This document shows positions 1,551 to 33,882 of a DNA stretch of 36,977 nt, one piece after another. Below the pieces are notes generated by a model, which saw nothing but the letters and a program-made list of their open reading frames with translations, had not been told where the DNA came from and made no database searches. The position numbers and the translations under genes were made by a program. The first letter of the stretch is position 1; each line of letters opens with the position of its first letter. The stretch comes from a virus, in the IMG/VR virus record IMGVR_UViG_3300030060_001866, positions 1-36,977 of that record; one strand, 5' to 3'.

Positions 1551-2318
1551 CTACAGATAATCAAGCACTTGCGAGTGATCAACATTATCTATAAGCTTTT
1601 TAACAGCTTGCTTTTTTAGCTGTGATATTCTAACATAAGCACTGCTTCCTTGTATGTTTAATTCTTGAGCTATTTCTTTAGCTTGCATTTTATCACAGTC
1701 TAAACCATAGCTCATTCTAAGAACTTCATACTCTTTATTATCAAGATACTTTTTCATTAAACCTTTTAAATATATGTTTAATAAATTCATATTATAAGGT
1801 TCTGATTTATCAGGTATTTGATAAACCATATTTTCATCTTGACTTGGTTTTTCATCTATACTTAAAAATATAGAATTAAAAAACATTTCTACCATCTTTT
1901 TATCTTTACCAAAATTTCTACGTATTTCATTAAGCTTGTGTTCAGGTATTCTCATGTCACCACGATTAATATCTATTGCTCTACGTATTTGACCTTTTAT
2001 TCTTTTAGATAAAAAAGATTTAATTGTTTTTTCTTGATCTTCAGATTCCTTTAATACTTCGTAATCTATACGATCTACTGCTTTAGTCAAACCTGAATTA
2101 CCTTCTTGTATTAAATCCATAATGGTCATAACACCAGATGCTTGCTGACTAGTAGAAAATTTTCTAGCTAGATTTTCAACAAGCGGTAAAAAACAAGTTA
2201 TCATTTGTTTTCTATTGTAAACAGTATAATCACCATTTTCTATTTTAGGTAAATTAAAAATGGCTTGCTCGACATCTTTCTTGTATCGAATATAATTCTG
2301 TATATTATACTTCTTCAT
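1551..2318 (-). CDS. phage-encoded sigma-70-like RNA polymerase sigma factor
   Basis: A 255-aa protein with recognisable sigma regions. Region 2.1-2.2 is LVENLARKFS followed by MDLIQEGNSGLTKAVDRID (about residues 47-86), the classic core-binding signature. Region 2.3-2.4 is SFLSKRIKGQIRRAIDINRGD followed by MRIPEH (about 105-130). A C-terminal helix-turn-helix like region 4 follows, YEVLRMSYGLDCDKMQAKEI then the recognition helix (about 195-245). It would redirect host polymerase to phage promoters. Its likely target is the 36-bp motif repeated in this window, which does not look like the usual Bacteroidota -33/-7 promoter; that link is inference. It overlaps the upstream HTH gene by 14 nt. 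Confidence 0.9.
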   Translation of the reverse strand: MKKYNIQNYIRYKKDVEQAIFNLPKIENGDYTVYNRKQMITCFLPLVENLARKFSTSQQASGVMTIMDLIQEGNSGLTKAVDRIDYEVLKESEDQEKTIKSFLSKRIKGQIRRAIDINRGDMRIPEHKLNEIRRNFGKDKKMVEMFFNSIFLSIDEKPSQDENMVYQIPDKSEPYNMNLLNIYLKGLMKKYLDNKEYEVLRMSYGLDCDKMQAKEIAQELNIQGSSAYVRISQLKKQAVKKLIDNVDHSQVLDYL

Positions 2319-2922
2319 TTAATATTTGTTTTTCTTGTTTAAGTTTATCACACATATGGCGATGTACTGTTCTTGTAGAGCAATTAAGTAAACCAGCAAT
2401 ACGACTAATTGTAATTTTCTTACCCCAGTCATTTAAGTCTAACATAGTTTGATATATCATTTCTTTATCTATGCTTGATCTACCTATTAATTTACCTACA
2501 ATTTTTAATTTACCACTCAAGTCTAAACCTGAGTAAGGTTTAAATACTACTTTGCGTAGCTTGTTTGCAGGTGGATCACCACCTTGCATTAACACATCTC
2601 CAATCATGTCTTCTAGTAATTTATTCTTAATAAAGAAGGTAACAAAACCATTTTCTTTATTAGCTATAAATCTAGCTACAGTTACAAAATCAGAGTTTAT
2701 TATATTATCCATGTTAAGATAATATAACACAAGCATGTGCCACTTTAATGATTTGTATGTAGTTATCTTAGCCTTGGTATTAAACAAGTGATAACATTGA
2801 TACGTACCATTTTCGTAGTATTTATATTGTTTAGTTTCAATAGTAGGCACATCAGTATCAGGATCTTTCCTATATACGATGCGTCTATCATTTAACCATT
2901 TTAAATTTCTATCTTGTGACAT
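2305..2922 (-). CDS. helix-turn-helix protein, putative regulator
   Basis: A 205-aa protein. The C-terminal 40 residues (WGKKITISRIAGLLNCSTRT then VHRHM) have the shape of a helix-turn-helix of the crosswise-regulation or replication-initiator type. The N-terminal two thirds has an aromatic-rich region (YKYYENGTYQCYHLF) and a helical middle with no family I recognise. It lies directly upstream of the sigma factor and overlaps it by 14 nt, so the two are probably co-translated. This suggests a role in phage transcription control or in replication initiation. The function is unproven. Confidence 0.6.
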   Translation of the reverse strand: MSQDRNLKWLNDRRIVYRKDPDTDVPTIETKQYKYYENGTYQCYHLFNTKAKITTYKSLKWHMLVLYYLNMDNIINSDFVTVARFIANKENGFVTFFIKNKLLEDMIGDVLMQGGDPPANKLRKVVFKPYSGLDLSGKLKIVGKLIGRSSIDKEMIYQTMLDLNDWGKKITISRIAGLLNCSTRTVHRHMCDKLKQEKQILNEEV

Positions 2923-3757: not shown

Positions 3758-3864
3758 TTATATCTTTTGTTATCTAGTCTATTATAATGTTTGTCTAATA
3801 AGAGGTTTGCTACCTCTTCTGATATTAAGTTGTCGTTGTATAGTTGCCATATTAATTTACTCAT
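3754..3864 (-). CDS. 36-aa micro-protein between ligase and glycosylase-like gene
   Basis: A 37-codon frame starting MSKLIWQLYNDNL and ending DNKRYK. It overlaps the ligase stop by 8 nt and the next ATG by 4 nt (ATGA), exactly filling the gap between two clear genes. That tight coupling is the main evidence that it is real. The product is a short amphipathic helical peptide with no recognisable motif. The stretch ACAAAC followed by GACTAGATAACA inside it is weakly like the promoter motif of this arm. Confidence 0.5.
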   Translation of the reverse strand: MSKLIWQLYNDNLISEEVANLLLDKHYNRLDNKRYK

Positions 3865-4693
3865 AATTTCTTATACATTTAAATAGCGGGTGTCTGTATG
3901 AACCTGCTTGTGTTCGTTGAAAATAAGTAAAGGTTGCACGCTTGCCAATATAAGAATCAATATTCTTGAGCATACTAGCTAAATCCTTGTAGTTGTATCC
4001 ACGTCCGGGTGGACAACCGAACTCAACACCTTCGTCATCTAGCATTATGAACTTGCCTAACGTGCCTGTCCTTTTACCTTTACCTATTTCATAACCTATG
4101 ATAGTTGCTTCAGTATCGCTGAAGTCTTTGAACTTCATTAGATCGTAAGACCTACCGTGTTTGTATAGACCGTCGAGCCTGATAATAGAGCCTTCGTAGC
4201 CTTCACTAAGATATGCTGCGTGGAAGTCTCTAGCTGCTTCGTAGCTGTGAACAGGATCAGCGTGAACATACTTGATCTGAGCATCATAGATGTTAGAACA
4301 AATAAGCTGATCTCGTCTAGTATCATATGAATCATACATTACTCCATCGAAGTAATCGTACACATGAAACTGTACTAGATGTTGAGCATCAAGCCTGTCG
4401 TCTGCAGTAGGTTTTTGCTTACGAACTAATGATATAATCTTTTCAAAATCACGTTTTAGTTTGTGATTATATAATTCACCGTCAAGTACAACATCAGGTT
4501 GATCTTTGAAAAACGGTATAAGTGCTAACTCAATATGAGCTAGATTCATAAATTTTTTACCGGTACGAGAATATGCACCGTCTTTTGTAAATAAGCATCG
4601 AACACCGTCGAGCTTAGGTTGTATGTACACAGGTTGTGACCAGTCAACACGACTGTCATCGAACTTGTGTGCTAGCATAGGTTTTAATGTCAT
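3857..4693 (-). CDS. ATP-dependent DNA ligase
   Basis: A 278-aa compact ligase. Nucleotidyltransferase motif I is KLDGVR with adenylated Lys27. RTGKKF gives motif Ia, VVLDGELYNH (68-77) motif III, YEGSIIR (166-172) motif IV and LMKFK (185-189) motif V. A short OB-fold domain follows, with GKGKRTGTLGKF. There is no N-terminal DNA-binding domain, as is usual for small phage ligases. It seals nicks during phage replication and recombination. Its codons are somewhat more G/C-ending than those of the neighbouring genes. The start shares 4 nt with the stop of the upstream gene. Confidence 0.92.
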   Translation of the reverse strand: MTLKPMLAHKFDDSRVDWSQPVYIQPKLDGVRCLFTKDGAYSRTGKKFMNLAHIELALIPFFKDQPDVVLDGELYNHKLKRDFEKIISLVRKQKPTADDRLDAQHLVQFHVYDYFDGVMYDSYDTRRDQLICSNIYDAQIKYVHADPVHSYEAARDFHAAYLSEGYEGSIIRLDGLYKHGRSYDLMKFKDFSDTEATIIGYEIGKGKRTGTLGKFIMLDDEGVEFGCPPGRGYNYKDLASMLKNIDSYIGKRATFTYFQRTQAGSYRHPLFKCIRNYE

Positions 4694-4983
4694 AGGTTGT
4701 TAAGTTTGTCTTGTATTATTTCTAATCTTCTTTTTATTATTGCTGCCTTCATAAACTCTTCTTTATCTTCATACATGTGAAGTAAGGTTGTTAATCTAGC
4801 TAGTTCAGCTACCAAAAACTCTTCTTCAGTTTCTCTGAACGGCATATAGCCTTTCATTATATCGGCTATACTTAGAGGTGTTTCTAGCTGATGATATTCT
4901 TGTTTAAACTTCCACAGCATTTTTTTAATTACTGCGTCGGTAATCATATCAATTGTTGCATCATTTATATTATCCAAATCCAT
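4690..4983 (-). CDS. small helical protein of unknown function (97 aa)
   Basis: A largely alpha-helical acidic protein. The last 30 residues (MYEDKEEFMKAAIIKRRLEI) faintly resemble the UVR motif of UvrB/UvrC, a short helical protein-interaction hairpin; this is weak. It is translationally coupled to the ligase (4-nt overlap), which suggests a partner or regulatory role in DNA metabolism. The annotated ATG lies inside a copy of the promoter-like motif (4966-5000). If that copy is active, the real start may be the methionine at residue 13 (MITDAVIKKM). Confidence 0.65.
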   Translation of the reverse strand: MDLDNINDATIDMITDAVIKKMLWKFKQEYHQLETPLSIADIMKGYMPFRETEEEFLVAELARLTTLLHMYEDKEEFMKAAIIKRRLEIIQDKLNNL

Positions 4984-5000
4984 ACGTATTTAGTTTGTAA
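4966..5000 (-). promoter_or_regulatory. 36-bp promoter-like motif, copy 1
   Basis: Read on the minus strand it has the shared blocks TTACAAAC, AAATACG and TTTGGATAATATAA at the same spacing as the other copies. It overlaps the start codon of the gene at 4690-4983. The GATAAT core resembles a -10 element. Confidence 0.5.
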
Positions 5001-5514
5001 TACTTGAAGTTAATATATCTATTATTTTAGTTGCGTTTGAATGTGATAACTGAACCTTGCTTGATGAAAAGTTTTTATCACTTCTTACTTCGCCATTAGC
5101 AAAATCAGTATATTCCATATCATCTTTATACGTTTCTATTATTTTATCAGGTGTTGATACAAATACGTTTCTACTACTATAATTATCATAACAGCTAATC
5201 CATATATCTTCTTTACCTGTAAATATAATATAAGTATAGTGATGATCTATATGAGCAGGGTCTGCATATAAGTAGCAACTGTCATAGTACATATCGTGTA
5301 CTAGCTTTGCAGCTATAGCACTACCGTCTTGTCTAGCATTAGCTTTACACCAATTTGCTATTTGTACACCTTGCCATTCAGGATAACCATCGTGATGTAA
5401 ATACATATTTACATAGCTTTTGTCAGTAAACCAAGCAGGATTTTCTGCAAAACCTAGCTCAGTATCTTCTGCGTGTCGTCTATCTACGACCATTGTTAAG
5501 TTTCTTGTTGCCAT
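4990..5514 (-). CDS. phage protein of unknown function (174 aa)
   Basis: A 174-aa protein starting MATRNLTMVVDRRHAEDTEL, with repeated aromatic and His-rich stretches (YVNMYLHHDGYPEWQG, HIDHHYTYIIFTG). The order of the first block, a short beta strand, then a YLHHDGYPEWQG loop with W-C following, resembles a phage family of about 170 aa found beside early genes, but I cannot name it. It looks like a small mixed alpha/beta cytosolic protein; no membrane segment or known catalytic motif is visible. It sits 6 nt before the next gene in the early operon. Confidence 0.65.
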   Translation of the reverse strand: MATRNLTMVVDRRHAEDTELGFAENPAWFTDKSYVNMYLHHDGYPEWQGVQIANWCKANARQDGSAIAAKLVHDMYYDSCYLYADPAHIDHHYTYIIFTGKEDIWISCYDNYSSRNVFVSTPDKIIETYKDDMEYTDFANGEVRSDKNFSSSKVQLSHSNATKIIDILTSSITN

Positions 5515-5517
5515 ATT

Positions 5518-5832
5518 TTATAAATTATCTCGTTCTACAAATAATGCATAGCCAAGCTTTGCATAGTTAATTATATCACCGAACCTACTAATCATAGGTT
5601 CTGCTTTATTTAGATCGTGGTTGCTAGCGTGAGCAGCAACTGAGCTAACCTGCTTATCAAAATAAGCATACCATACTACTAACGGATCTACACCTAGCTT
5701 TTTAGCTGTAGATTTAAAGTTGTTAAGTACATCACTATCCTGCATTGTATATTCAGGACCTTTCTTGTTCATTGTTTCTTGCGCGTACGAGTCTAGCTCA
5801 TGTACTAACGCATTAAAATTTTCTGTCGTCAT
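5518..5832 (-). CDS. small helical phage protein, DUF1599/MazG-like
   Basis: A 104-aa all-helical protein. The order of motifs NKKGPEYT, DVLNNFKSTAKKLGV, VWYAYFDKQ and RFGDIINYAKLGYAL matches a phage family I associate with DUF1599 (nucleotide modification associated domain 1), in which a four-helix core ends with R-x-x-D-I/L-I-N-Y. Such proteins may act on nucleotide metabolism, but no catalytic role is established here. The gene is packed 3 nt from its neighbours on both sides within the minus-strand early operon. Confidence 0.65.
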   Translation of the reverse strand: MTTENFNALVHELDSYAQETMNKKGPEYTMQDSDVLNNFKSTAKKLGVDPLVVWYAYFDKQVSSVAAHASNHDLNKAEPMISRFGDIINYAKLGYALFVERDNL

Positions 5833-5834
5833 AT

Positions 5835-6131
5835 TTAGTCTAATAGTATTAAATAAGCTCTAGCGTTGGCTTTTCTAAACCAGTCTAATGCTTTTCTCAT
5901 TTCATTGCTAAGTCTAGCAACGTCTGGATGTAGTATATCATCATTATAAGTTACTGATATAGTATATTCAGCACCTTTAATAAAATCATACATCGCTAAT
6001 TCATTGGGTGTTAGTATTGCTTGGTTACCTGTAAAAGGGTTGCTAACAAGATCACCTTCTTTGTATACGACACCTTTAAACCACTTTGGTAATTCAGTGT
6101 CATTTATTTTAATTGTTTTCTTCGTCTTCAT
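5835..6131 (-). CDS. phage protein of unknown function (98 aa)
   Basis: A 98-aa protein starting MKTKKTIKINDTELPKWFKG. A GDLVSNPFTGNQAILTPNEL segment (about residues 27-46) and a conserved-looking MYDFIKGAEY motif follow. A C-terminal helix contains DWFRKANARAYLILLD. Phages carry many similar small proteins in which N-P-(F/T)-(T/S)-G is followed by L-x-(P/A)-x-E-x-A-x-Y-D, but I know of no function. The first 23 nt overlap the end of the upstream acidic gene in another frame. Confidence 0.65.
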   Translation of the reverse strand: MKTKKTIKINDTELPKWFKGVVYKEGDLVSNPFTGNQAILTPNELAMYDFIKGAEYTISVTYNDDILHPDVARLSNEMRKALDWFRKANARAYLILLD

Positions 6132-6573
6132 AATAATCTTCTGAGTCTAATAACTCATCTTTTTTATCGTTAAACTTATCTTCGTATATGTCTGTCCACC
6201 ATTGTTCTAGTTCATGATTAAACTCCCACTCCATATCTGACCATAAATTAGGGTCTATCCATACATCACCACCTGATGTTAACTGGCCAATAGCTTGTTC
6301 TGACCACTCACTGTGATCTTCATAGTAATAGCCATCTTGTGACACATAAGGTTTTTCTTCGTGTGTACACCAGTATATATCATAGCTATCAGCTGTTGAT
6401 TCGCTGTATATTTTTAGTTTGTGTTTATCATCACACCAGTCAGTTGTGGTGTCTAGTTTGCCGCCATATTCCGTATCGATATATTCAAGAAGCCAAGGCG
6501 CATCTGGTTCTTCCATTATACCATCGTCGACTAATGCGTCGGTGATAATATCGTCTGTTAGTAACTCTGCCAT
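6109..6573 (-). CDS. very acidic, Trp-rich protein of unknown function (154 aa)
   Basis: A 154-aa protein extremely rich in Asp and Glu, with ten or more Trp residues (WCDD, WCTHEE, WSEQ, WIDPNLWSDMEW, WW). It ends DSEDYYEDEENN. Net charge is strongly negative, the profile of DNA-mimic or anti-host proteins, though nothing identifies a target. Its ATG overlaps the upstream stop by one base (TAATG), which fixes the start. It is one of the early-arm accessory genes. Confidence 0.65.
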   Translation of the reverse strand: MAELLTDDIITDALVDDGIMEEPDAPWLLEYIDTEYGGKLDTTTDWCDDKHKLKIYSESTADSYDIYWCTHEEKPYVSQDGYYYEDHSEWSEQAIGQLTSGGDVWIDPNLWSDMEWEFNHELEQWWTDIYEDKFNDKKDELLDSEDYYEDEENN

Positions 6574-6812
6574 TATTCTTCTATTAGCATTCTGCCGCCG
6601 TACATAATATCTTTGGCTGTTACATCACTTGTATAAAGACCTGAGTAAGACATTAGGTCACTAATATCTCTTAGAGATAAGTCATGCCATAATGTAGAGC
6701 TCATGAGTTTATACTTTAGTCTCTTAGCGCTGTCATATTTTCTAGCACTATCTTGCAACTCAGATTTTAGTTTAGGTTGCAATAAGTCATAAATTGATTT
6801 AATTTTACTCAT
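6573..6812 (-). CDS. small basic protein of unknown function (79 aa)
   Basis: A 79-aa protein starting MSKIKSIYDLLQPKLKSELQ, mostly helical. No family is recognised. It is the first gene after the long non-coding stretch 6813-7260 in the direction of transcription. Its leader has a promoter-like motif (6832-6869) and then the A/T-only run AACAATTAAATATAATAAC before ATG. Almost the same leader precedes the gene starting at 9627. It heads a run of tightly packed genes reaching the ligase. Confidence 0.65.
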   Translation of the reverse strand: MSKIKSIYDLLQPKLKSELQDSARKYDSAKRLKYKLMSSTLWHDLSLRDISDLMSYSGLYTSDVTAKDIMYGGRMLIEE

Positions 6813-6831
6813 GTTATTATATTTAATTGTT

Positions 6832-6869
6832 TATATTAATATCCAACTGTCATCGTATTTATATTGTAA
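6832..6869 (-). promoter_or_regulatory. 36-bp promoter-like motif, copy 2
   Basis: The minus strand reads TTACAATA, AAATACGA and CAGTTGGATATTAATA with the common spacing. It lies in non-coding DNA 20-57 nt before the ATG at 6812, so conservation here is not explained by coding. Confidence 0.6.
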
Positions 6870-6882
6870 CAGTATATTAAGG

Positions 6883-6904
6883 GTGGTATTGTGCACATAC
6901 CCAC
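6883..6904. other. hairpin
   Basis: GTGGTAT (6883-6889) pairs with ATACCCAC (6897-6904) with one bulged C, around a 7-nt loop TGTGCAC. There is no T-run on either side, so a simple intrinsic terminator is unlikely. It lies between the minihelix and the promoter-like motif. Confidence 0.5.
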
Positions 6905-6913
6905 GCTTTCTGG

Positions 6914-6952
6914 GGAATATACTCCTTGGAGTTCAGATTACTTCTATATTCC
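6914..6952. other. 8-bp perfect inverted repeat enclosing a second one
   Basis: GGAATATA (6914-6921) pairs with TATATTCC (6945-6952). Between them ACTCC-TT-GGAGT (6921-6932) can form its own hairpin sharing one base with the outer stem. This is likely RNA structure in a transcript downstream of the tRNA-like elements. It has no recognised family. Confidence 0.5.
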
Positions 6953-6977
6953 GTCCTTCGTGTTTTACCCTGTTAGA

Positions 6978-7023
6978 GAACATGGTGGGATTCGAACCCA
7001 CACTTTAGTACCGTAGCATGTTC
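6978..7023 (-). ncRNA. tRNA-like minihelix (acceptor stem plus T-arm only)
   Basis: On the minus strand: acceptor 5' GAACATG, a 15-nt linker CTACGGTACTAAAGT, T-arm GTGGG-TTCGAAT-CCCAC with a canonical T-loop, acceptor 3' CATGTTC, discriminator T, then CTAA. The acceptor pairing is perfect over 7 bp, or 8 with the flanking A and the discriminator. There is no room for D and anticodon arms, and I found no normal cloverleaf using this T-arm. Acceptor plus T-arm is the minimal substrate known for RNase P, so this may be a processing signal. A tRNA remnant is the alternative. Confidence 0.5.
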
Positions 7024-7118
7024 TACCATAATTATTACTTGTCACTACGACTGGCTTTGTACAACTGATACCTCAAGGAAGCCAAGGCGTCGATTTACTG
7101 TTAGAGTAATAAATTAGT

Positions 7119-7234
7119 GGACGTGGCAGGAGTCGAACCTGCGTTTCAATCAACTTGCGTTTTATACTACTGGAGATTTCGTAAGACGTCTATCCCAAAC
7201 CTCACAAGTTGTATTGACTTACCATATCACGCCC
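7119..7234 (-). ncRNA. tRNA-like element with enlarged anticodon-position arm (tmRNA-like shape)
   Basis: On the minus strand: acceptor GGGCGTG pairs with CACGTCC (7 bp, one G-U). A 16-nt D-like stretch with GGTAA follows, then a long arm in the anticodon position. That arm is CAACTTG with CAAGTTG (7 bp), topped by GAGGTTT with AAATCTC (7 bp, one G-U), and has a 15-nt one-sided bulge. Then comes T-arm GCAGG-TTCGACT-CCTGC, discriminator A and CTAA. At 116 nt it is too long for a tRNA, and no loop has T33 plus an anticodon in place. The plan is that of a tmRNA tRNA-like domain, but I see no tag reading frame. Confidence 0.45.
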
Positions 7235-7260
7235 ATACTCTCTTGTTTTCAACACTAAGC

Positions 7261-7548
7261 TTACAGTGTATTCCCGAGAGTTATATCTTTGTCACTTGTT
7301 ACCATCCACTCACAGTCATTTACTTTGTGACCTGCGCCGTATAAAAACGCTTCACAAGACTCTGAGTCAGGATTCCATTTATTTTCTTCGTTACATAACG
7401 AGCTAATGTCATATCTATATACTTTACCGTCTGTAAAATCTAGTAAGAATATGTATTTAGCTTGATAGCTACCTGTGCTTCTTAACCCACTGTAGTTACA
7501 AGTATTTTCTTCTTGCATTTCATGCCATGCTTTTACTGAATCACTCAT
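7261..7548 (-). CDS. phage protein of unknown function (95 aa)
   Basis: A 95-aa protein starting MSDSVKAWHEMQEENTC, acidic, with five Cys residues spread through the chain and a beta-rich centre (YIFLLDFTDGKVYRYDI). The Cys spacing does not form an obvious zinc site. I do not recognise the family. It overlaps the upstream 72-aa gene by 8 nt. The stop is followed within about 30 nt by the tmRNA-like element, so the mRNA probably runs into that structured RNA. Confidence 0.6.
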   Translation of the reverse strand: MSDSVKAWHEMQEENTCNYSGLRSTGSYQAKYIFLLDFTDGKVYRYDISSLCNEENKWNPDSESCEAFLYGAGHKVNDCEWMVTSDKDITLGNTL

Positions 7549-7759
7549 CGTAGTATTTATTAGTATTTACATCAAAAGCATTTGCGACATGACGAGCAAC
7601 AGTTCTAGCCATATAACTATGAGCTTCGTCTATTATTGTGCCCTCACTGTTAGGGGGTAGAAACTGATCTACTTGCCAGTCGCATTGCTTATTGATTTGT
7701 TTTGTTATATCTTCTGCTATTTCTTTAGCTACTATATGTATTTGTTTGTTTACTCCCAT
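7541..7759 (-). CDS. small helical protein of unknown function (72 aa)
   Basis: A 72-aa protein starting MGVNKQIHIVAKEIAEDITK, with two amphipathic helices separated by a CDWQVDQFLPPNSEGT linker, then ARTVARHVANAFDVN. There is no family match by eye. The ATG lies 5 bases past the upstream stop, after TTTAAGATAATACT, which carries a GATAAT reminiscent of the promoter core but without the rest of the motif. It overlaps the next gene by 8 nt, as is usual in this operon. Confidence 0.6.
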   Translation of the reverse strand: MGVNKQIHIVAKEIAEDITKQINKQCDWQVDQFLPPNSEGTIIDEAHSYMARTVARHVANAFDVNTNKYYDE

Positions 7760-7763
7760 AGTA

Positions 7764-7976
7764 TTATCTTAAACATGTACCATAACCTCGGCGTGCGGTT
7801 GACTTACGTATACGTTTCGCCTGACTCTTCGGCATTATCTGGATGGTATTGCCGGTTTTATGGTATGTGATTTGCACACAACCATATGGTTCAGTGGTTG
7901 AACAGTTGACGCAAGAGGTATACCCTAGGGCCAACCGCGCTGGAGGTATTATATTTTTACATTTACATTTTGTCAT
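7764..7976 (-). CDS. TraR/DksA-type zinc-ribbon protein (70 aa)
   Basis: Starts MTKCKCKNIIPPARLALGYT followed by SCVNC. The order C-x-C, I-P-P-A-R-L, then C-x-x-C matches the C4 zinc finger of the DksA/TraR family, except that the first pair is spaced C-x-C rather than C-x-x-C. The C-terminal half (YHKTGNTIQIMPKSQAKRIR) is basic and conserved in phage proteins I recall. There is no DksA coiled coil, so direct action on RNA polymerase is uncertain; nucleic-acid binding is an alternative. The promoter-like motif ends only about 8 nt before the ATG, implying a leaderless or nearly leaderless transcript. Confidence 0.6.
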   Translation of the reverse strand: MTKCKCKNIIPPARLALGYTSCVNCSTTEPYGCVQITYHKTGNTIQIMPKSQAKRIRKSTARRGYGTCLR

Positions 7977-7980
7977 ACGA

Positions 7981-8016
7981 TATTATTATCCAACTTTATT
8001 CGTATTTTGTTTGTAA
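7981..8016 (-). promoter_or_regulatory. 36-bp promoter-like motif, copy 3
   Basis: The minus strand reads TTACAAAC, AAAATACGAAT and AAGTTGGATAATAATA. It overlaps the last codons and stop of the gene at 7986-8441 and ends a few bases before the ATG at 7976. Confidence 0.6.
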
Positions 8017-8441
8017 TTCTTTAGATAGTATTCTAACATATAGTTTAATCTAGCAAGATTTGACCATATTTTAGCTCTTGCTTTACCTATATATTTTCTA
8101 GTTTCTAGCTTACCATCAATTAAAAACGTAGTTCTTTGCTCTTGATTATAAGTTTTATTTATTTGATATGGCGAATAAGTACCATTTTGTTTTCTTACAT
8201 AACCTGATTTAAAGCAAGCTAATCTTAATCTTGGTGTATCTTTCCACTTAATTCCTTTCGTTTTCATCCACCTTTTGTAATACTCATTAGTATTAGCGTA
8301 TGTAGATGTAGGAAATTCAAACTCTCTCGTACCATTTATTGCTTGTCTTTGCGTGGTTACTTCTTTAATATTATACTTAATTAGCAATTGTCTTACAAAT
8401 GCGTTCTCAAGTGCTTCTTGTTCTAATTGATATTGTGTCAT
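7986..8441 (-). CDS. phage protein of unknown function (151 aa)
   Basis: I start this gene at MTQYQLEQEALENAF (8441). The open frame continues upstream to 8543, but those codons are the translated tRNA-fMet and cannot be coding. The product is basic, with an N-terminal helical segment, a TSTYANTNEYYKRWMKTKG middle and a C-terminal LARLNYMLEYYLKNYKQ helix. I know no family. Its leader CTAAATTAATAACT begins exactly at the 3' end of the tRNA, so tRNA maturation would create the 5' end of this message. Confidence 0.65.
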   Translation of the reverse strand: MTQYQLEQEALENAFVRQLLIKYNIKEVTTQRQAINGTREFEFPTSTYANTNEYYKRWMKTKGIKWKDTPRLRLACFKSGYVRKQNGTYSPYQINKTYNQEQRTTFLIDGKLETRKYIGKARAKIWSNLARLNYMLEYYLKNYKQNTNKVG

Positions 8442-8456
8442 AGTTATTAATTTAGT

Positions 8457-8518
<62 letters not shown>

Positions 8519-8528
<10 letters not shown>

Positions 8529-8764
8529 ATTTTTTGCATCCACTCCCAGTCTTTTTGAAACATACCTTCGGGTGCATATTTGTTATACAAATCTACTAGT
8601 TCTTTAGTCCAACCACCTTGTGATTCAACTTTATCCTCAATAATATCTCGCTCTCTTCTGCCAGATTCATAGTATCTACTGTCATCACTCATCATATAAG
8701 TGTGGTCGTGATGCTTGAACATTTCTTCAAGTGTTAAATCGTCAAAGTATCTTTGTTTAGGCAT
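8519..8764 (-). CDS. acidic phage protein of unknown function (81 aa)
   Basis: Starts MPKQRYFDDLTLEEMFKHHD and continues HTYMMSDDSRYYESGRRERD. The HDHTYxxSDDxRxY stretch is one I associate with a small conserved protein of marine phages, of unknown role. The last codons and the TAG stop lie inside the tRNA-fMet acceptor strand (10-nt overlap), so RNase P cleavage of the tRNA would remove the stop codon from this message. Overlap with the next upstream gene is 8 nt. Confidence 0.65.
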
Positions 8765-8954
8765 AAGTTCTATTGTTTATTTTAGTAAATTTATTAAATG
8801 ATTTGTAGCATTTGTCGCCTTCATCATAGTATTTAGTGTTGTTAGTGCTTTGTAGTACTTCTGTTTTACCATTTGCGTATGTTAGTACAGCATATTGTGG
8901 TTTGAAAAAGTTACTAGCATTAGCGCCATGAAATTTTATCTTGTTCATAATCAT
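8757..8954 (-). CDS. small basic protein of unknown function (65 aa)
   Basis: Starts MIMNKIKFHGANASNFFKPQ, with a beta-rich QYAVLTYANGKTEVLQS middle. M3 is an equally good start. No family is recognised. Promoter-like motif copy 4 ends about 10 nt before the ATG, so this gene probably begins a transcript with a very short leader. It overlaps the next gene by 8 nt. Confidence 0.6.
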   Translation of the reverse strand: MIMNKIKFHGANASNFFKPQYAVLTYANGKTEVLQSTNNTKYYDEGDKCYKSFNKFTKINNRTYA

Positions 8955-8960
8955 ATTTTA

Positions 8961-8996
8961 TTATATTATCCAACTATATTCGTATTACGTTTGTAT
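8961..8996 (-). promoter_or_regulatory. 36-bp promoter-like motif, copy 4
   Basis: The minus strand reads ATACAAAC, TAATACGAATA and AGTTGGATAATATAA, among the closest to consensus. It overlaps the 3' end of the 44-aa gene at 8966-9100 and precedes the ATG at 8954. Confidence 0.65.
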
Positions 8997-9100
8997 GTTT
9001 CTTTGTTATATCTATCCCACCATTCATCTTCTATCATTAGAATTTGTTGTTTAGTAAGTTTTAGTATAGTTTTATGTGTATATTTTCTAGAGTGTGCCAT
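8966..9100 (-). CDS. 44-aa micro-protein, M-x-x-x-R-K-x-T-H family
   Basis: Reads MAHSRKYTHKTILKLTKQQ, then QILMIEDEWWDRYNKETYKR, then NTNIVG. The start resembles that of the next upstream gene (MSNTRKHTHEKLW), suggesting a small paralogous family. It overlaps that gene by 14 nt. The last codons coincide with the promoter-like motif, so the NTNIVG ending may be imposed by the DNA signal. Function is unknown. Confidence 0.5.
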   Translation of the reverse strand: MAHSRKYTHKTILKLTKQQILMIEDEWWDRYNKETYKRNTNIVG

Positions 9101-9230
9101 AGTAAACGTCAGTATATTCTTCAATTGTTACCCACTTTCCTAAATCGTTTGAGTAAATCATACCATCTATCACGTGCTCGTCTGCAAATGACCATAGTTT
9201 TTCGTGTGTATGTTTTCTAGTATTGCTCAT
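9087..9230 (-). CDS. 47-aa micro-protein, M-x-x-x-R-K-x-T-H family
   Basis: Starts MSNTRKHTHEKLWSFADEHV and ends EEYTDVYYGTL. It shares the basic MxxxRKxTH N-terminus with the following 44-aa gene, whereas the C-terminal parts differ. It overlaps both neighbours by exactly 14 nt. The evidence for being coding is the ATG-to-stop tiling with its neighbours and the shared N-terminus; there is no known family. Confidence 0.5.
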   Translation of the reverse strand: MSNTRKHTHEKLWSFADEHVIDGMIYSNDLGKWVTIEEYTDVYYGTL

Positions 9231-9336
9231 GAACTATCTTATTTACGTGAGACTTTTGCTCACTGGTTAGTAAATTGTAGTGCTTACCATATATTCTGAA
9301 CCCTACTTTTAATTTATATGTATTTATATGTGCCAT
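9217..9336 (-). CDS. 39-aa micro-protein of unknown function
   Basis: Starts MAHINTYKLKVGFRIYGKHY and ends HVNKIVHEQY. It is basic and His-rich. Its stop overlaps the start of the next micro-gene by 14 nt, and the leader AAATTAAATATT is A/T-only. It is too short to classify. Confidence 0.45.
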   Translation of the reverse strand: MAHINTYKLKVGFRIYGKHYNLLTSEQKSHVNKIVHEQY

Positions 9337-9346
9337 AATATTTAAT

Positions 9347-9442
9347 TTAGCATGGGCAGAATACCCATAGTGAAACATATAGTGCGTAGAATATGAACGC
9401 TACGAACATAAATTCTACGACTATTTTAATTAACTCTTTCAT
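9347..9442 (-). CDS. 31-aa single-pass membrane peptide
   Basis: Reads MKELIKIVVEFMFVAFIFYA, then LYVSLWVFCPC: two charged residues, then one hydrophobic stretch of about 22 residues. Its ATG overlaps the TAA of the upstream membrane protein gene by one base (TAATG). Two consecutive tiny membrane genes suggest a pair acting together in the envelope, for example in superinfection exclusion or lysis control; that is speculation. Confidence 0.5.
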   Translation of the reverse strand: MKELIKIVVEFMFVAFIFYALYVSLWVFCPC

Positions 9443-9627
9443 TAGTAGCAAATTCCACAGTTAAAGTTTGCATTAGCTGCTCCACCTGTCGCTATCATGA
9501 ATATCATAAAGCCGATACCAGTTACAGCTAGTGTTCCTAATCCCACCGCAACAGTATCAAGTAGTATATGTAGTGGATGAGTATTTGTTACGTATTTATA
9601 CGCTTTGTTATAATGAAATTTAATCAT
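9442..9627 (-). CDS. small membrane protein (61 aa)
   Basis: Starts MIKFHYNKAYKYVTNTHPLH, followed by a hydrophobic segment of about 30 residues (LLDTVAVGLGTLAVTGIGFM then IFMIAT) that can span the membrane once or form a short hairpin, then a GGAANANFNCGICY tail with two Cys. The leader begins with CTAAC right after the minihelix at 9651-9693 and continues AATTAAATATAATAACT. Function is unknown. Confidence 0.6.
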   Translation of the reverse strand: MIKFHYNKAYKYVTNTHPLHILLDTVAVGLGTLAVTGIGFMIFMIATGGAANANFNCGICY

Positions 9628-9650
9628 AGTTATTATATTTAATTGTTAGT

Positions 9651-9693
9651 ACTAGTGCGTGTAATCGAAACACACCTCTGCTCCAAGACTAGT
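9651..9693 (-). ncRNA. tRNA-like minihelix, second copy
   Basis: On the minus strand: acceptor 5' ACTAGTC, a 12-nt linker TTGGAGCAGAGG, T-arm TGTGT-TTCGATT-ACACG (one G-U), acceptor 3' CACTAGT (6 of 7 pairs), discriminator A, then CTAA. Like 6978-7023, it lacks room for D and anticodon arms. ACTAGT is itself a palindrome, which weakens the pairing evidence. The following CTAACAATTAAATATAATAACT is the leader of the gene starting at 9627, so 3' processing would define that mRNA end. Confidence 0.4.
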
Positions 9694-9750
9694 TATTCAA
9701 CTGTATTTATACTCGAGAGAACTTTGAACGCCGAGTTGTAAAAAGTTAGA

Positions 9751-9978
9751 TTATACTAACTCTTTACCTCTAAGCACTACTGGTATATTATTAGTAGCAG
9801 TGTATGACTTATACTTTAACCAACATGGTAGTTTAGTAAGTGTATCTTTCATTATTGAAAATACTTTGTCATGATTGTAAACTATCTTGTCACCTTTTTT
9901 GTTTGTGAATTCTATAGTTTGATTTTTACCGACTAGTGATTGTCTCACGACAAATCTTTTTGAAATTAAGTTACTCAT
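9751..9978 (-). CDS. small basic protein of unknown function (75 aa)
   Basis: Starts MSNLISKRFVVRQSLVGKNQ, continues TIEFTNKKGDKIVYNHDKVF and ends VVLRGKELV. The N-terminal half looks like a small beta-barrel or SH3-like strand pattern. No family is recognised. A promoter-like motif lies 27-62 nt before the ATG, followed by an A/T-only leader. Downstream, a 123-nt gap to the next gene carries the second tRNA-like minihelix. Confidence 0.6.
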   Translation of the reverse strand: MSNLISKRFVVRQSLVGKNQTIEFTNKKGDKIVYNHDKVFSIMKDTLTKLPCWLKYKSYTATNNIPVVLRGKELV

Positions 9979-10004
9979 AGTTATTTATATTTAAGTTATT
10001 ATAT

Positions 10005-10040
10005 ATTTATTATCCATTTAAATTCGTAATTAGTATGTGT
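10005..10040 (-). promoter_or_regulatory. 36-bp promoter-like motif, copy 5
   Basis: The minus strand reads CACATACTAA, TTACGAATT and AAATGGATAATAAATA. It overlaps the end of the possible 45-aa frame and precedes the gene starting at 9978. Confidence 0.55.
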
Positions 10041-10147
10041 GTAAAAGTACATTGTTTGTTTACTATTTGAAATTTGCTTAGTAGTATTCCGCACTCACTC
10101 ATAATATCTAATTTAGTTTTTAAATTACTTACATTATTATTATCCAT
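10010..10147 (-). CDS. possible 45-aa micro-protein (weak)
   Basis: An open frame starting MDNNNVSNLKTKLDIMSECG and ending HILITNLNG. Both ends coincide with copies of the promoter-like motif (its ATG is within copy 6, its stop within copy 5), so the frame may be partly an artefact of the motif. An internal start at MSECGILLS is possible. If real, it is the first gene of the left arm. Confidence 0.3.
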   Translation of the reverse strand: MDNNNVSNLKTKLDIMSECGILLSKFQIVNKQCTFTHILITNLNG

Positions 10148-10170
10148 ATGTAGTCGTATATAGTATGTAA
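10135..10170 (-). promoter_or_regulatory. 36-bp promoter-like motif, copy 6
   Basis: The minus strand reads TTACATACTA, TATACGACT and ATATGGATAATAATA. This is the first copy in the leftward direction and probably launches the early arm. Confidence 0.55.
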
Positions 10171-10200
10171 AAAAACTAGTAATATATATAAAAAAATTAG

Positions 10201-10236
10201 TACATACAAAATACGAAAATTATAGGATAATATAGG
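10201..10236 (+). promoter_or_regulatory. promoter-like motif on the plus strand, facing the late arm
   Basis: The plus strand reads TACATACAAAATACGAA, a 7-nt spacer, then GGATAATATAGG. Every block of the leftward motif is present at the same spacing but on the opposite strand, facing the only rightward gene block. This directionality argues for a promoter rather than a repeat. Confidence 0.6.
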
Positions 10237-10240
10237 TATA

Positions 10241-11031: not shown

Positions 11032-12606
11032 ATGGAATATAGTCAACCGAGTGAGATCGTTAAAGATCTCGTCTTTGGCGTCGATGCTAAAGAAAAAGTA
11101 ATGAAAGGAGTAGGTAAGCTAGCGAAAGCAGTTAAGTCTACGCTGGGAGCTTCAGGTAAATGTGTTGTATATGAAGACACATTTGGAAGACCATTGATAA
11201 CAAAAGACGGTGTAACCGTAGCAGATTCTGTAGTTTTGTTTGATCCGGTCGAAAATATAGGTGCAACGCTTATTAAAGAAGCTTCTAAAAATACAGTGAA
11301 AGAAGCAGGTGACGGTACTACAACAGCTATCGTCCTTGCTGAATCACTATTAAAAGAGGTTAATGATATAGAACACTCTGATTTAACAACAAGAGAAATA
11401 AAACAAGGTATTAAAACATATGCTGATAAAGTATATAAATACTTAGATAAAGTTTCTATACCTGTTGAAGGTGATATGTTAAACAGTGTAGCTGATATAT
11501 CATGTAACAATGATAAGAGTTTAGGTGAAATAATATCAACAGCTTATAGTAAAGTTGGTAAAGACGGTGTAGTTTTAATGGAAGAAAGCGAAACTGAAGA
11601 AACTTATGCTGAAATAGTAGAAGGTGTACAGTTTGCTAGTAAGCTAACGTCACAACATTTCATCACAGATAAAGATAAACAAAGATGTTTACTAGATAAT
11701 CCTTATATTTTAATAGTAGCATCGGAAATACCTAGTATTAGAAAGATACAAAAGATACTAGAACATGTTATAAAGAAAAATAGAAGCTTATTAATAGTTG
11801 CTTCAGTAAGTAATCAAGTTAAATCAGCACTCTTAATGAACAAAGTTAAGGGTAATATTAAAGTAAATATAGTTGATACACCTGGTTTTGGAGCTAATAA
11901 GCGTGATACAATAGATGATTTAGCAATTTTAACAGGTGCTAAAGTAATAGATGAAGAGCTTGGAGATGATTTAGATCTGATCCAGCCAGATTGTTTGGGT
12001 GAAGTAGTGAAATCTGTAACAGATAGCAGAACTACAGTCCTAACAACTGGCGTTTTAAACGAAAATGTATCGGAAAGAATAAAAAATATAGAAAAATCTA
12101 TATCAAAATCAAAAGATCCTTTTCTTAAAAAGAAATTACAAGAGCGTTTAGCCATGTTAAGTGGCTCTGTAGGCATCATAAGAGTTGGTGCTGGCTCAAA
12201 AATTGAATTAAAAGAGAAAAAAGATCGTGTAGAGGACGCAATTTACGCAGTTAAAGCTGCTTTACAAGAAGGAATTGTGCCCGGAGGTGGTAGAGCACTG
12301 GCAGAAGCGGCTGAAAATTGTAAAATTTCGCAAAAATCGCAAAAAATTCTGCAAAAAGCGCTATTTTCACCATACTTAACCATACTTGATAACGCAGATA
12401 TGCAAGAAAAGTCAAAACTAACGCTAGAAAAGGGTTGGGGTATTGATGTTACTTGCGGTTGTGCTAGAGATATGGTAAAAACTGGTATCATAGACCCAGT
12501 ACTTGTTACTAAGACAGCGTTAAAAAATGCAGTTAGCGTTGTTTCTACTATTATTTCTGCAGATTGTGTAATTTCAAATATAAGAATAGACAATGCGAGC
12601 AGTTAG
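11032..12606 (+). CDS. groEL: phage-encoded GroEL chaperonin (Hsp60)
   Basis: 524 aa, against about 545 for bacterial GroEL, and colinear with it. The equatorial ATP site is intact: TLGASG (38-43), TKDGVTV (57-63) with the first catalytic Asp, DGTTTA (94-99), D402 in VEDAIYAVKAAL (equivalent to E. coli Asp398), EGIVPGGG (413-420) and IDPVLVTKTAL near the end. In the apical domain the substrate site of E. coli (Y199, Y203, F204) reads L205, H209, F210 here, a shift that could change client choice. The C-terminal Gly-Gly-Met tail is absent. It presumably folds the phage capsid, fibre or other late proteins, with the overlapping GroES. This is a late-arm gene with an A/T-only leader. Confidence 0.95.
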   Translation: MEYSQPSEIVKDLVFGVDAKEKVMKGVGKLAKAVKSTLGASGKCVVYEDTFGRPLITKDGVTVADSVVLFDPVENIGATLIKEASKNTVKEAGDGTTTAIVLAESLLKEVNDIEHSDLTTREIKQGIKTYADKVYKYLDKVSIPVEGDMLNSVADISCNNDKSLGEIISTAYSKVGKDGVVLMEESETEETYAEIVEGVQFASKLTSQHFITDKDKQRCLLDNPYILIVASEIPSIRKIQKILEHVIKKNRSLLIVASVSNQVKSALLMNKVKGNIKVNIVDTPGFGANKRDTIDDLAILTGAKVIDEELGDDLDLIQPDCLGEVVKSVTDSRTTVLTTGVLNENVSERIKNIEKSISKSKDPFLKKKLQERLAMLSGSVGIIRVGAGSKIELKEKKDRVEDAIYAVKAALQEGIVPGGGRALAEAAENCKISQKSQKILQKALFSPYLTILDNADMQEKSKLTLEKGWGIDVTCGCARDMVKTGIIDPVLVTKTALKNAVSVVSTIISADCVISNIRIDNASS

Positions 12607-32358: not shown

Positions 32359-33882
32359 ATGCCTTTTTCAAGTGTAGGTGCGTATTTATCGCACATAACT
32401 CCAAGACCGTCAAAGCAAGTATATTTAAATAACTACTTGTCATTTGACGACAGTTCTGGTGGTGGTACTTTTGCTCAGCAATTCCTACCAGAAATTTATG
32501 AGAAGGAAGTAGAGAGATTCGGTAAAAGAACTATCTCTGGTTTCTTATCAATGGTTGGAGCAGAAATGCCTATGGCTTCTGATCAAGTAATTTGGTCTGA
32601 GCAAGGTAGATTACATATTGCATATAGCTCCGCTGCTAATAACGACGGTGCTGATGCTGTAGAAATCAAAACTGCTGCTTCTAACACAATTACGTTACCA
32701 GCTAACAACTTAATTCAAAACCACGATACAATCGTCATTGCAAATGAAGATTCAAGCAAGGTTTTAAAAGCTATTGTAGTTGCTGGTGGTGGAACAACTG
32801 AAATAACTGTTGCTCCATATACTCAATCCCATTTAAATGGTCAAAACTCAGGACCGGTTAACTTTGCTGACAATGAAGATATAAACATTTTTGTTTACGG
32901 TACTGAATATAAGAAAGGTTCAAGTGAGACAAGTAGAAAAATCGACGCTCCTTTTACTCAGTTTTCTAACAAGCCAATGATTTTAAGAGACAGATACCAA
33001 ATTTCTGGTTCTGACACTGCACAAATCGGTTGGGTTGAAGTAACAACTGAAGAGGGTGCATCAGGTTATCTATGGTACTTAAAATCTGAATCTGAAGCTA
33101 GACTAAGATTTAACGATTACCTAGAAATGGCAATGGTTGAAGCTGAAGATGTTGACGCAACAGGTAATGCTGGTGCTAACTTCCAAGGCTCAGGTGCTTT
33201 TGCTGTTAAAGGTTCTGAAGGTCTATTTGCTGCTTTAGAGTCAAGAGGTTTAGTATTTACTGGAACTGACTTTGATGTATTCCAAGCTTTAAACTCTACT
33301 GCAGGACCAGGTGGTACTCCATCTGCTCAAGCTTATGTTTCACAACAAGGTTTAGGTGAGTTTGATGTAATTCTTCAAGAATTAGATAAGCAAGGTGCTA
33401 TTGAAGAAAACATGATGTTCTTAGACAGATCAACTTCATTAGAAATTGATAACATGTTAGCTTCATTAAATTCAGGATTTGTTGGTGGTGTTTCTTACGG
33501 TGTATTTAACAACGCTGAAGATATGGCCTTAAATTTAGGTTTCTCTGGTTTCAGAAGAGGTTCTTATGACTTCTATAAAACTGACTGGAAATATCTAAAT
33601 GACTCTGTAACAAGAGGTTTAATAGGTGATGTTGAAGGTGTTATCATACCTGCAGGTACATCAACTGTTTATGATGAGCAATTAGGTAAGAATATTCAAA
33701 GACCATTCTTACACGTTAGATATAGAGCTTCTGAAGCTGATGATAGAAAAATGAAATCATGGATCACTGGATCTGTTGGTGGAAACTTCACATCTGACGT
33801 AGATGAAATGGTAGTGAACTTCCTATCAGAAAGATGTTTATGTGTTCAAGCTGCGAATAACTTCGTATTATTGAAAAACTAA
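32359..33882 (+). CDS. major capsid protein
   Basis: 507 aa. N-terminal blocks GGGTFAQQFLPEIYEKEVER, FGKRTISGFLSMVGAEMPM and SDQVIWSEQGRLH match crAss-like and related HK97-fold capsids as I recall them. An insertion domain with a beta-rich centre and a C-terminal SERCLCVQAANNFVLLKN complete the chain. Codons are more C-ending (TTC, AAC, GAC) than in neighbours, as expected for the most expressed gene. A strong intrinsic terminator follows the stop, which further supports this assignment. Confidence 0.88.
   Translation: MPFSSVGAYLSHITPRPSKQVYLNNYLSFDDSSGGGTFAQQFLPEIYEKEVERFGKRTISGFLSMVGAEMPMASDQVIWSEQGRLHIAYSSAANNDGADAVEIKTAASNTITLPANNLIQNHDTIVIANEDSSKVLKAIVVAGGGTTEITVAPYTQSHLNGQNSGPVNFADNEDINIFVYGTEYKKGSSETSRKIDAPFTQFSNKPMILRDRYQISGSDTAQIGWVEVTTEEGASGYLWYLKSESEARLRFNDYLEMAMVEAEDVDATGNAGANFQGSGAFAVKGSEGLFAALESRGLVFTGTDFDVFQALNSTAGPGGTPSAQAYVSQQGLGEFDVILQELDKQGAIEENMMFLDRSTSLEIDNMLASLNSGFVGGVSYGVFNNAEDMALNLGFSGFRRGSYDFYKTDWKYLNDSVTRGLIGDVEGVIIPAGTSTVYDEQLGKNIQRPFLHVRYRASEADDRKMKSWITGSVGGNFTSDVDEMVVNFLSERCLCVQAANNFVLLKN

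Follow-up and report, generated by a model that had tools for sequence, protein, structure and literature searches.

Which form of RNA polymerase (RNAP) reads a motif that recurs seven times, with a consistent direction, in a single piece of viral DNA? The question is raised by the IMG/VR record IMGVR_UViG_3300030060_001866, the whole of which (36,977 bases, hereafter the window) was analyzed and which, judged by its relatives, is a piece of a podovirus-like genome of roughly 63-71 kb. A first-pass annotation of the window had proposed that the motif is the promoter class of a sigma factor encoded by the phage itself. The evidence collected here supports that proposal: the motif is very probably a promoter class read by the core RNAP of the host together with the phage sigma factor encoded at 1551-2318. 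The motif is tied to this protein because the two co-occur, because variation in the motif fits the tree of the sigma factor better than those of other phage genes, and because the sites have the anatomy of a promoter for bacterial RNAP.

The motif and its copies

Six copies had been placed on the minus strand and one on the plus strand, and these places and orientations were borne out both by the sequence and by a profile built from the relatives. They are given below with their profile scores, the predicted transcription start (+1) and the open reading frame (ORF) or genes that they face.

4968..4999, minus strand: copy 1, elements from -37 to -6; 43.1 bits; predicted +1 at 4962; faces ORF 4690-4983 and the block of ligase, helix-turn-helix (HTH) and sigma genes, with an in-frame ATG about 15 nucleotides (nt) past +1
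6837..6868, minus strand: copy 2, in non-coding DNA; 30.6 bits; predicted +1 at 6831; ATG of ORF 6573-6812 about 20 nt downstream
7984..8015, minus strand: copy 3, over the end of ORF 7986-8441; 44.7 bits; predicted +1 at 7978; ATG of ORF 7764-7976 at +3
8964..8995, minus strand: copy 4, over the end of ORF 8966-9100; 41.3 bits; predicted +1 at 8958; faces ORF 8757-8954
10008..10039, minus strand: copy 5, over the end of ORF 10010-10147; 33.3 bits; predicted +1 at 10002; ATG of ORF 9751-9978 about 25 nt downstream
10138..10169, minus strand: copy 6, the first of the leftward array; 37.5 bits; predicted +1 at 10132; the small ORF 10010-10147 has an in-frame ATG about 30 nt past +1
10201..10232, plus strand: copy 7, the sole rightward copy; 31.9 bits; predicted +1 at 10238; faces the GroEL/structural arm

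The profile found no eighth site above 7 bits in the window. Chance is ruled out there by dinucleotide shuffling, because a degenerate version of the motif has seven matches in the window, as opposed to a mean of 0.005 and a maximum of 1 in 200 shuffled sequences. Sites of the E. coli sigma70 type in the window were also considered and were at the level of chance (58 vs 59.2).

The same pattern extends to the relatives. The core TACGA-N8-GGATAAT occurs 107 times in 161 related loci with a gap of 8 bases and never with gaps of 6, 7, 9 or 10, and a profile of 43 columns, with a threshold of 12 bits, yields 359 distinct sites, compared to 0 in reversed-sequence controls; this fixed spacing and the empty controls rule out chance across the relatives as well. 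Furthermore, an unbiased k-mer enrichment recovers the motif as the dominant signal of the leftward, early arm. A second early signal, TGTTTAAC, proved to be coding conservation.

The sites are directional, as the first-pass annotation had claimed. In sigma-bearing loci, 407 of 415 lie on the strand of the sigma gene, and the 8 exceptions occur one per locus. Opposite-strand copies lie mostly at the divergent junction in the genomes that were read whole, and copy 7 has counterparts, also rightward, at this junction in some relatives. An ORF starts within 40 nt downstream of 72% of 353 distinct sites, compared to 24% of random positions in the same region and on the same strand, and the median distance from site to ORF start is 17 nt. 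The earlier remark that coding does not explain the motif was likewise correct, since only 15% of the sites fall inside an ORF of at least 60 amino acids, compared to 67% of random positions, and 48 of the 53 sites inside ORFs are at gene ends.

The sequence logo consists of TACAAAC (-37 to -31), AATACGA (-28 to -22) and GATAATA (-12 to -6), followed by an A/T-rich stretch and a purine at +1. The second and third blocks are separated by 7-8 free bases, with T favored at -14, and TACAA and TACGA are direct repeats 11 bp apart, i.e., about one helical turn. The blocks described at first reading were thus found at fixed spacing, with two corrections to their letters: position -13 of the GGATAAT block varies by lineage (G, A, C or T), and the upstream block at -37/-33 reads TCGAA in one clade.

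At sites chosen solely by TACG-N9-GGATAAT, +1 is a purine in 95% of the cases and G in 40%, as opposed to a local background of 63% and 9%, respectively. Start codons were rejected as the source of this signal, which persists (94% purine, 47% G) once the sites with a start codon near +1 are dropped. A purine at this position is the pattern expected of a start site 7 nt after the -10 box, and this sequence signature fits the earlier expectation of a start 6-12 nt after GGATAAT.

The phage sigma factor and its link to the motif

The sigma factor is encoded on the same strand as most of the copies, and the genes that follow the array on this strand include the three listed here.

1551..2318, minus strand: phage sigma factor, 255 amino acids, with sigma-70 regions 2-4 and no region 1.1 (PHROG 351, E 1e-21; Pfam Sigma70_r2; PDB sequence and fold)
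2305..2922, minus strand: protein with a C-terminal HTH, overlapping the sigma gene (HTH_11, E 9e-4, below the cut-off)
3857..4693, minus strand: ATP-dependent DNA ligase (PHROG 114, E 7e-77; gene order of the relatives), at the downstream edge of the promoter array

PHROG 351, Pfam region 2 and the sigma factors of the PDB all agree with the identity that the first-pass annotation had given to the product of 1551-2318. Region 2 scores above the Pfam cut-off; region 4 is below it and is aligned in the PDB sequence and fold searches.

Co-occurrence was assessed on contigs gathered by the bare motif core from 2.9 million viral contigs. These contigs form two groups, one with high profile scores and usually several sites, the other made of chance matches with one weak match. 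A relative of the window sigma factor is encoded in 27 of the 50 contigs tested, and none was detected in six low-scoring control contigs (0/6). The array-bearing contigs that are near-complete encode the sigma gene. Eight others carry the array and no sigma gene (G022, G026, G027, G031, G036, G045, G047 and G052), and all of them end in or just past the array, before the position of sigma; a true absence was therefore rejected, as truncation inside the array explains these cases. This explanation rests on the longer array-bearing contigs and does not extend to the shorter G063-G067. Conversely, the sigma-less relatives MW202828 and elemoE, whose terminases are 63% and 46% identical, respectively, have no sites even at 5 bits. 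The motif is thus restricted to sigma-bearing phages, the exceptions being one site in contig G039 and rare isolated copies in host chromosomes.

Three further contigs deserve mention. In G038 (L337-L339; 45.5 kb) there are one or two sites, one of the TCGAA type lying at 33856, and the contig has neither homologues of the marker genes nor a sigma match. G044 appeared to have two sigma-HTH pairs; the contig ends are divergent copies of one region (79-93% identical), and the contig is probably an assembly mix of two strains and not a case of paralogues. Finally, a contig binned as Sphingobacteriales has six sites (L365:223-2009, minus strand) of the related form TACAAAA..AATACGA..TTGATAATA and genes akin to window ORFs, which suggests that the promoter class may extend to a more distant phage lineage.

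Additional support comes from the way the motif varies. For 39 taxa with all of the genes, the per-genome base frequencies at the variable motif positions were fitted to the gene trees, and the summed log-likelihood deficit was 14.5 for sigma, compared to 46.8 for the HTH gene, 47.5 for Erf, 69.5 for the exonuclease and 87.0 for the ligase. The ranking was unchanged when primase was added (32 taxa), the sigma tree still being the best. Its gain is greatest at positions -32, -24, -23, -14, -13, -1 and +2. A phylogenetic regression over about 980 protein columns used approximate trees and gave p-values without correction, so that its ranking counts more than its numbers; in it, position -24 is led by sigma residues N118 and A227 and position -23 by N118 and Q233, with A114 also high. 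Q233 aligns with Q589 of E. coli sigma70, A227 is at the start of the recognition helix of region 4.2, and N118 and A114 come after region 2.4. Joint movement of sigma and motif by recombination would leave the same signal and likewise implies a functional link. A tree-free association of motif and protein columns was too confounded and was superseded by the tree-based fits.

Possible readers of the motif

In the proposed mechanism, which is well supported, the host core RNAP with the phage sigma factor would recognize a tripartite site. Region 2 of sigma would read and open the -10 element, and region 4.2, along with the segment after region 2.4, would read TACAAAC and AATACGA. The conserved purine, 7 nt past the T of GATAAT, would be the point where transcription starts, and the transcripts would enter the small early genes via short leaders and run on to the ligase, HTH and sigma genes. 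Because the array feeds the leftward arm, which holds the sigma gene, sigma production is probably self-reinforcing, to judge from the gene order. The first sigma molecules would then have to be supplied in another way: by a promoter not yet recognized, by leaky transcription on the part of the host, or within the virion.

Several points weigh against this mechanism. The promoters presumed to serve the sigma gene lie upstream of it, a point that the first-pass annotation had not raised, and a host-type promoter that could initiate its expression was looked for without success. Promoters read by a sigma factor alone do not usually have a conserved element at -26 to -22, and the altered distal element of the HTH-less clade (see below) could point to help from another protein. 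Changes at -36/-35 fit the Erf tree better than the sigma tree in the wider set of taxa, and the 39-58 taxa are partly non-independent. G039, a contig of 261 kb, has a single site and no matching sigma factor. Lastly, the late arm of the near-complete relatives has no copies, save the junction copy in some of them.

The motif is accordingly not a late-promoter system of the kind served by the late-gene sigma factors T4 gp55 and 7-11 gp47. In the near-complete relatives the array, of about 6-12 copies, lies in the stretch that separates the divergent junction from the ligase gene, and now and then a further copy is found near the primase or thymidylate synthase gene. The k-mer enrichment before late genes gave nothing comparable and no late promoter motif, only GCTTCGGC. 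This sequence recurs upstream of late genes in 13 genomes and probably represents terminator loops.

The copies might instead be immediate-early promoters read by host RNAP with a host sigma factor, the phage sigma serving other promoters. They precede small orphan early genes by the divergent junction and upstream of sigma, a common arrangement of early promoters that the host reads; the analysis found no other early promoter, and a few Flavobacteriaceae chromosomes hold isolated copies. This explanation is nevertheless improbable in view of the rarity of the motif in hosts. Its exact 21-base version occurs in 10 stretches in about 85,000 genomes, several of which are phage contigs placed in metagenome-assembled genomes, as told by their phage genes, and at one mismatch or less it was found in just 2 of 400 genomes of the host family Flavobacteriaceae, which rejects a general host promoter class. 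Furthermore, the primary promoter of Bacteroidota has TTTG at -33 and TANNTTTG at -7 (PMC6847099), and the alternative motifs of F. psychrophilum are SM5 (TAnnTTGY), SM6 (CGT box) and SM4 (sigma-54) (PMC9723704). The motif resembles none of them, in line with the first-pass statement that it lacks the TTG / TAnnTTTG pattern of Bacteroidota. Finally, a host sigma factor accords neither with the absence of the motif from the sigma-less relatives nor with the way its variation tracks the phage sigma tree.

Host-type elements were sought in the phages as well. TAnnTTTG was found near start codons 20 times on the early strand of elemoE, compared to 6 in the control (counts, with no formal test), and 42 times on the late strand of MW202828, 25 of them near start codons, compared to 23 in the control (also counts). 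In 15 sigma-bearing genomes, host-type promoters of the form TTG-N17-23-TAnnTTTG were not enriched.

Another explanation assigns only the -10 element to host RNAP and the upstream half to the HTH protein (2305-2922), as in the activator-dependent middle promoters of the MotA and CII type. The two TAC(A/G)A repeats 11 bp apart are in its favor, as are the adjacency of the HTH and sigma genes and their presence in the same 27 of 50 contigs. The protein may be expected to bind DNA, given its HTH; its AlphaFold2 model has a mean confidence (pLDDT) of 89.5, its only match, to DtxR/IdeR, covers 36 residues of the HTH, and Foldseek against the PDB gave no significant relative and no whole-fold match. 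What makes this explanation very unlikely is a group of four relatives (L033, L061, L063 and L065), two of them near-complete records with the other markers, which have no detectable HTH gene and keep the whole tripartite motif, with TCGAA replacing TACAA in its distal block. The HTH protein is thus dispensable, and its role as sole or necessary reader was rejected; the only adjacent candidate for a dedicated phage activator, it is missing from some motif-bearing relatives, and a different activator may be involved. Moreover, the HTH tree fits the motif variation worse than the sigma tree. A supporting contact of the protein at the distal element is possible, and the TCGAA form of the HTH-less clade would be in keeping with it; the link between the loss of the gene and TCGAA is weak, because the loss is probably a single event.

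It is highly improbable that the motif is a site for a protein other than RNAP, engaged in replication, packaging or silencing, that fronts genes by chance. The site is long and highly conserved for a promoter and has the repeated TAC(A/G)A elements, as such a site might; however, its fixed direction, its match with the gene strand, the purine 7 nt past the -10 element and the short leaders are promoter traits. The chance that the motif serves a single-subunit RNAP of the phage is close to nil. The letters of the motif presumably resemble the T7 promoter locally, so that AATACGA would correspond to part of it and GG to the start, yet the start signature is 13 nt beyond the GG and conservation reaches -37, past the extent of a T7-type promoter. 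Nor was an RNA polymerase found among the proteins scanned, or a DxDGD motif in a plausible gene, and a PF00940 search, which had no positive control, found none.

The isolated near-perfect copies in Flavobacteriaceae chromosomes (L369:1501-1531, L370:1501-1531, L371:1501-1531, L372:1501-1531 and L375:1501-1531) are an observation in their own right. Chromosomal copies precede a TerB-domain gene and a gene for a small secreted protein, the latter with two copies in one genome and one in a related genome; another directly follows a tRNA at a contig end. A sigma profile, in a search that had no positive control, detected no phage-type sigma factor in the host genomes that have such copies. One possibility, which we consider unlikely, is that certain host genes have come under the control of the phage sigma factor and are switched on solely upon infection by a sigma-bearing phage; if so, the copies could serve, for instance, a defence triggered by infection. 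Alternatively, they may be remnants of phages or satellites.

Comparison with known systems and the rest of the genome

The closest functional parallels are phiEco32 gp36 and phage 7-11 gp47, podovirus sigma factors that are used with the host core RNAP (PMC8948821, PMC4331800). As in these phages, the promoter class is specific to the phage, is present in several copies per genome, is unlike the host consensus and differs between related phages, with 6-9 nt from element to start. The likeness meant here is one of function. The promoters of phiEco32 and 7-11 drive middle and late genes, whereas the copies described here are confined to the early arm ahead of sigma; likewise, the former have a single element (tAATGTAtA) or a bipartite one (GTAAtg-16-aCTA), in contrast to three blocks over 32 bp.

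The promoters of the Bacteroidota primary sigma factor share with the motif the presumed host core and short A-rich leaders without a Shine-Dalgarno sequence, and differ in that the motif has no TAnnTTTG box and combines a GATAATA -10 element with two upstream blocks. The T4 middle promoters (MotA box) and the lambda CII promoters are read by host sigma70 with an activator. They resemble the motif in having an upstream element and a -10 element at fixed spacing, and the direct repeats one turn apart recall CII sites; unlike them, this phage has its own sigma factor and the likely activator candidate is dispensable. With sigma-28 (FliA), the phage protein shares group-3-like letters in region 2.4 (RIKGxIRRA) and the motif shares a GATAA core in the -10 element; the -35 block and the spacing are different, and the relationship between the two sigma factors is distant (FliA E 0.002).

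The testable features of a phage-sigma promoter class were thus found, and what sets this case apart from phiEco32 and 7-11 is the three blocks, the early-arm array before the sigma gene itself and the lack of recognisable host promoters. No described phage sigma-promoter pair for Bacteroidota, whose RNAP has an unusual primary sigma factor, was found in the literature searched. The present system offers such a pair, concrete and open to direct testing, in a diverse lineage of marine phages that are uncultured and akin to Flavobacterium phage elemo, and the motif predicts which genes the phage turns on, and where. Because sigma-bearing genomes appear to have abandoned host-type promoters, the origin of the first sigma molecules becomes a question, delivery in the virion included. 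In addition, sigma and motif vary in nature, and this variation amounts to a ready-made data set on the code by which a tripartite promoter of this unusual kind is recognized.

The window terminase is akin to those of Flavobacterium phage elemo and of Cellulophaga, Tenacibaculum and Maribacter phages. The rightward arm has GroEL, terminase, portal and capsid genes. The leftward arm has small orphan genes, the ligase, a Pyr_excise-like DNA-binding protein, the HTH gene, sigma, Erf and an exonuclease, and in relatives also a primase-helicase, a thymidylate synthase and a ribonucleotide reductase.

A gap between early ORFs may encode unusual tRNA-like RNAs, as judged by matches at 7115-7234 (minus strand), which is tmRNA-like (36.9 bits; gathering score 47) with an acceptor and a T arm, and at 6977-7023 (minus strand), which is shorter and has the T arm and acceptor only. 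Neither was found in six relatives at the gathering score. The early arm also contains a tRNA-Met (CAT) gene at 8455-8528 (minus strand); most of the relatives scanned have a tRNA at this place, and that in the early arm of elemoE is a tRNA-Met. In the late arm, a full-length phage GroEL is encoded at 11032-12606 (plus strand), a position that is kept in the relatives, and the sigma-less relatives have GroEL too.

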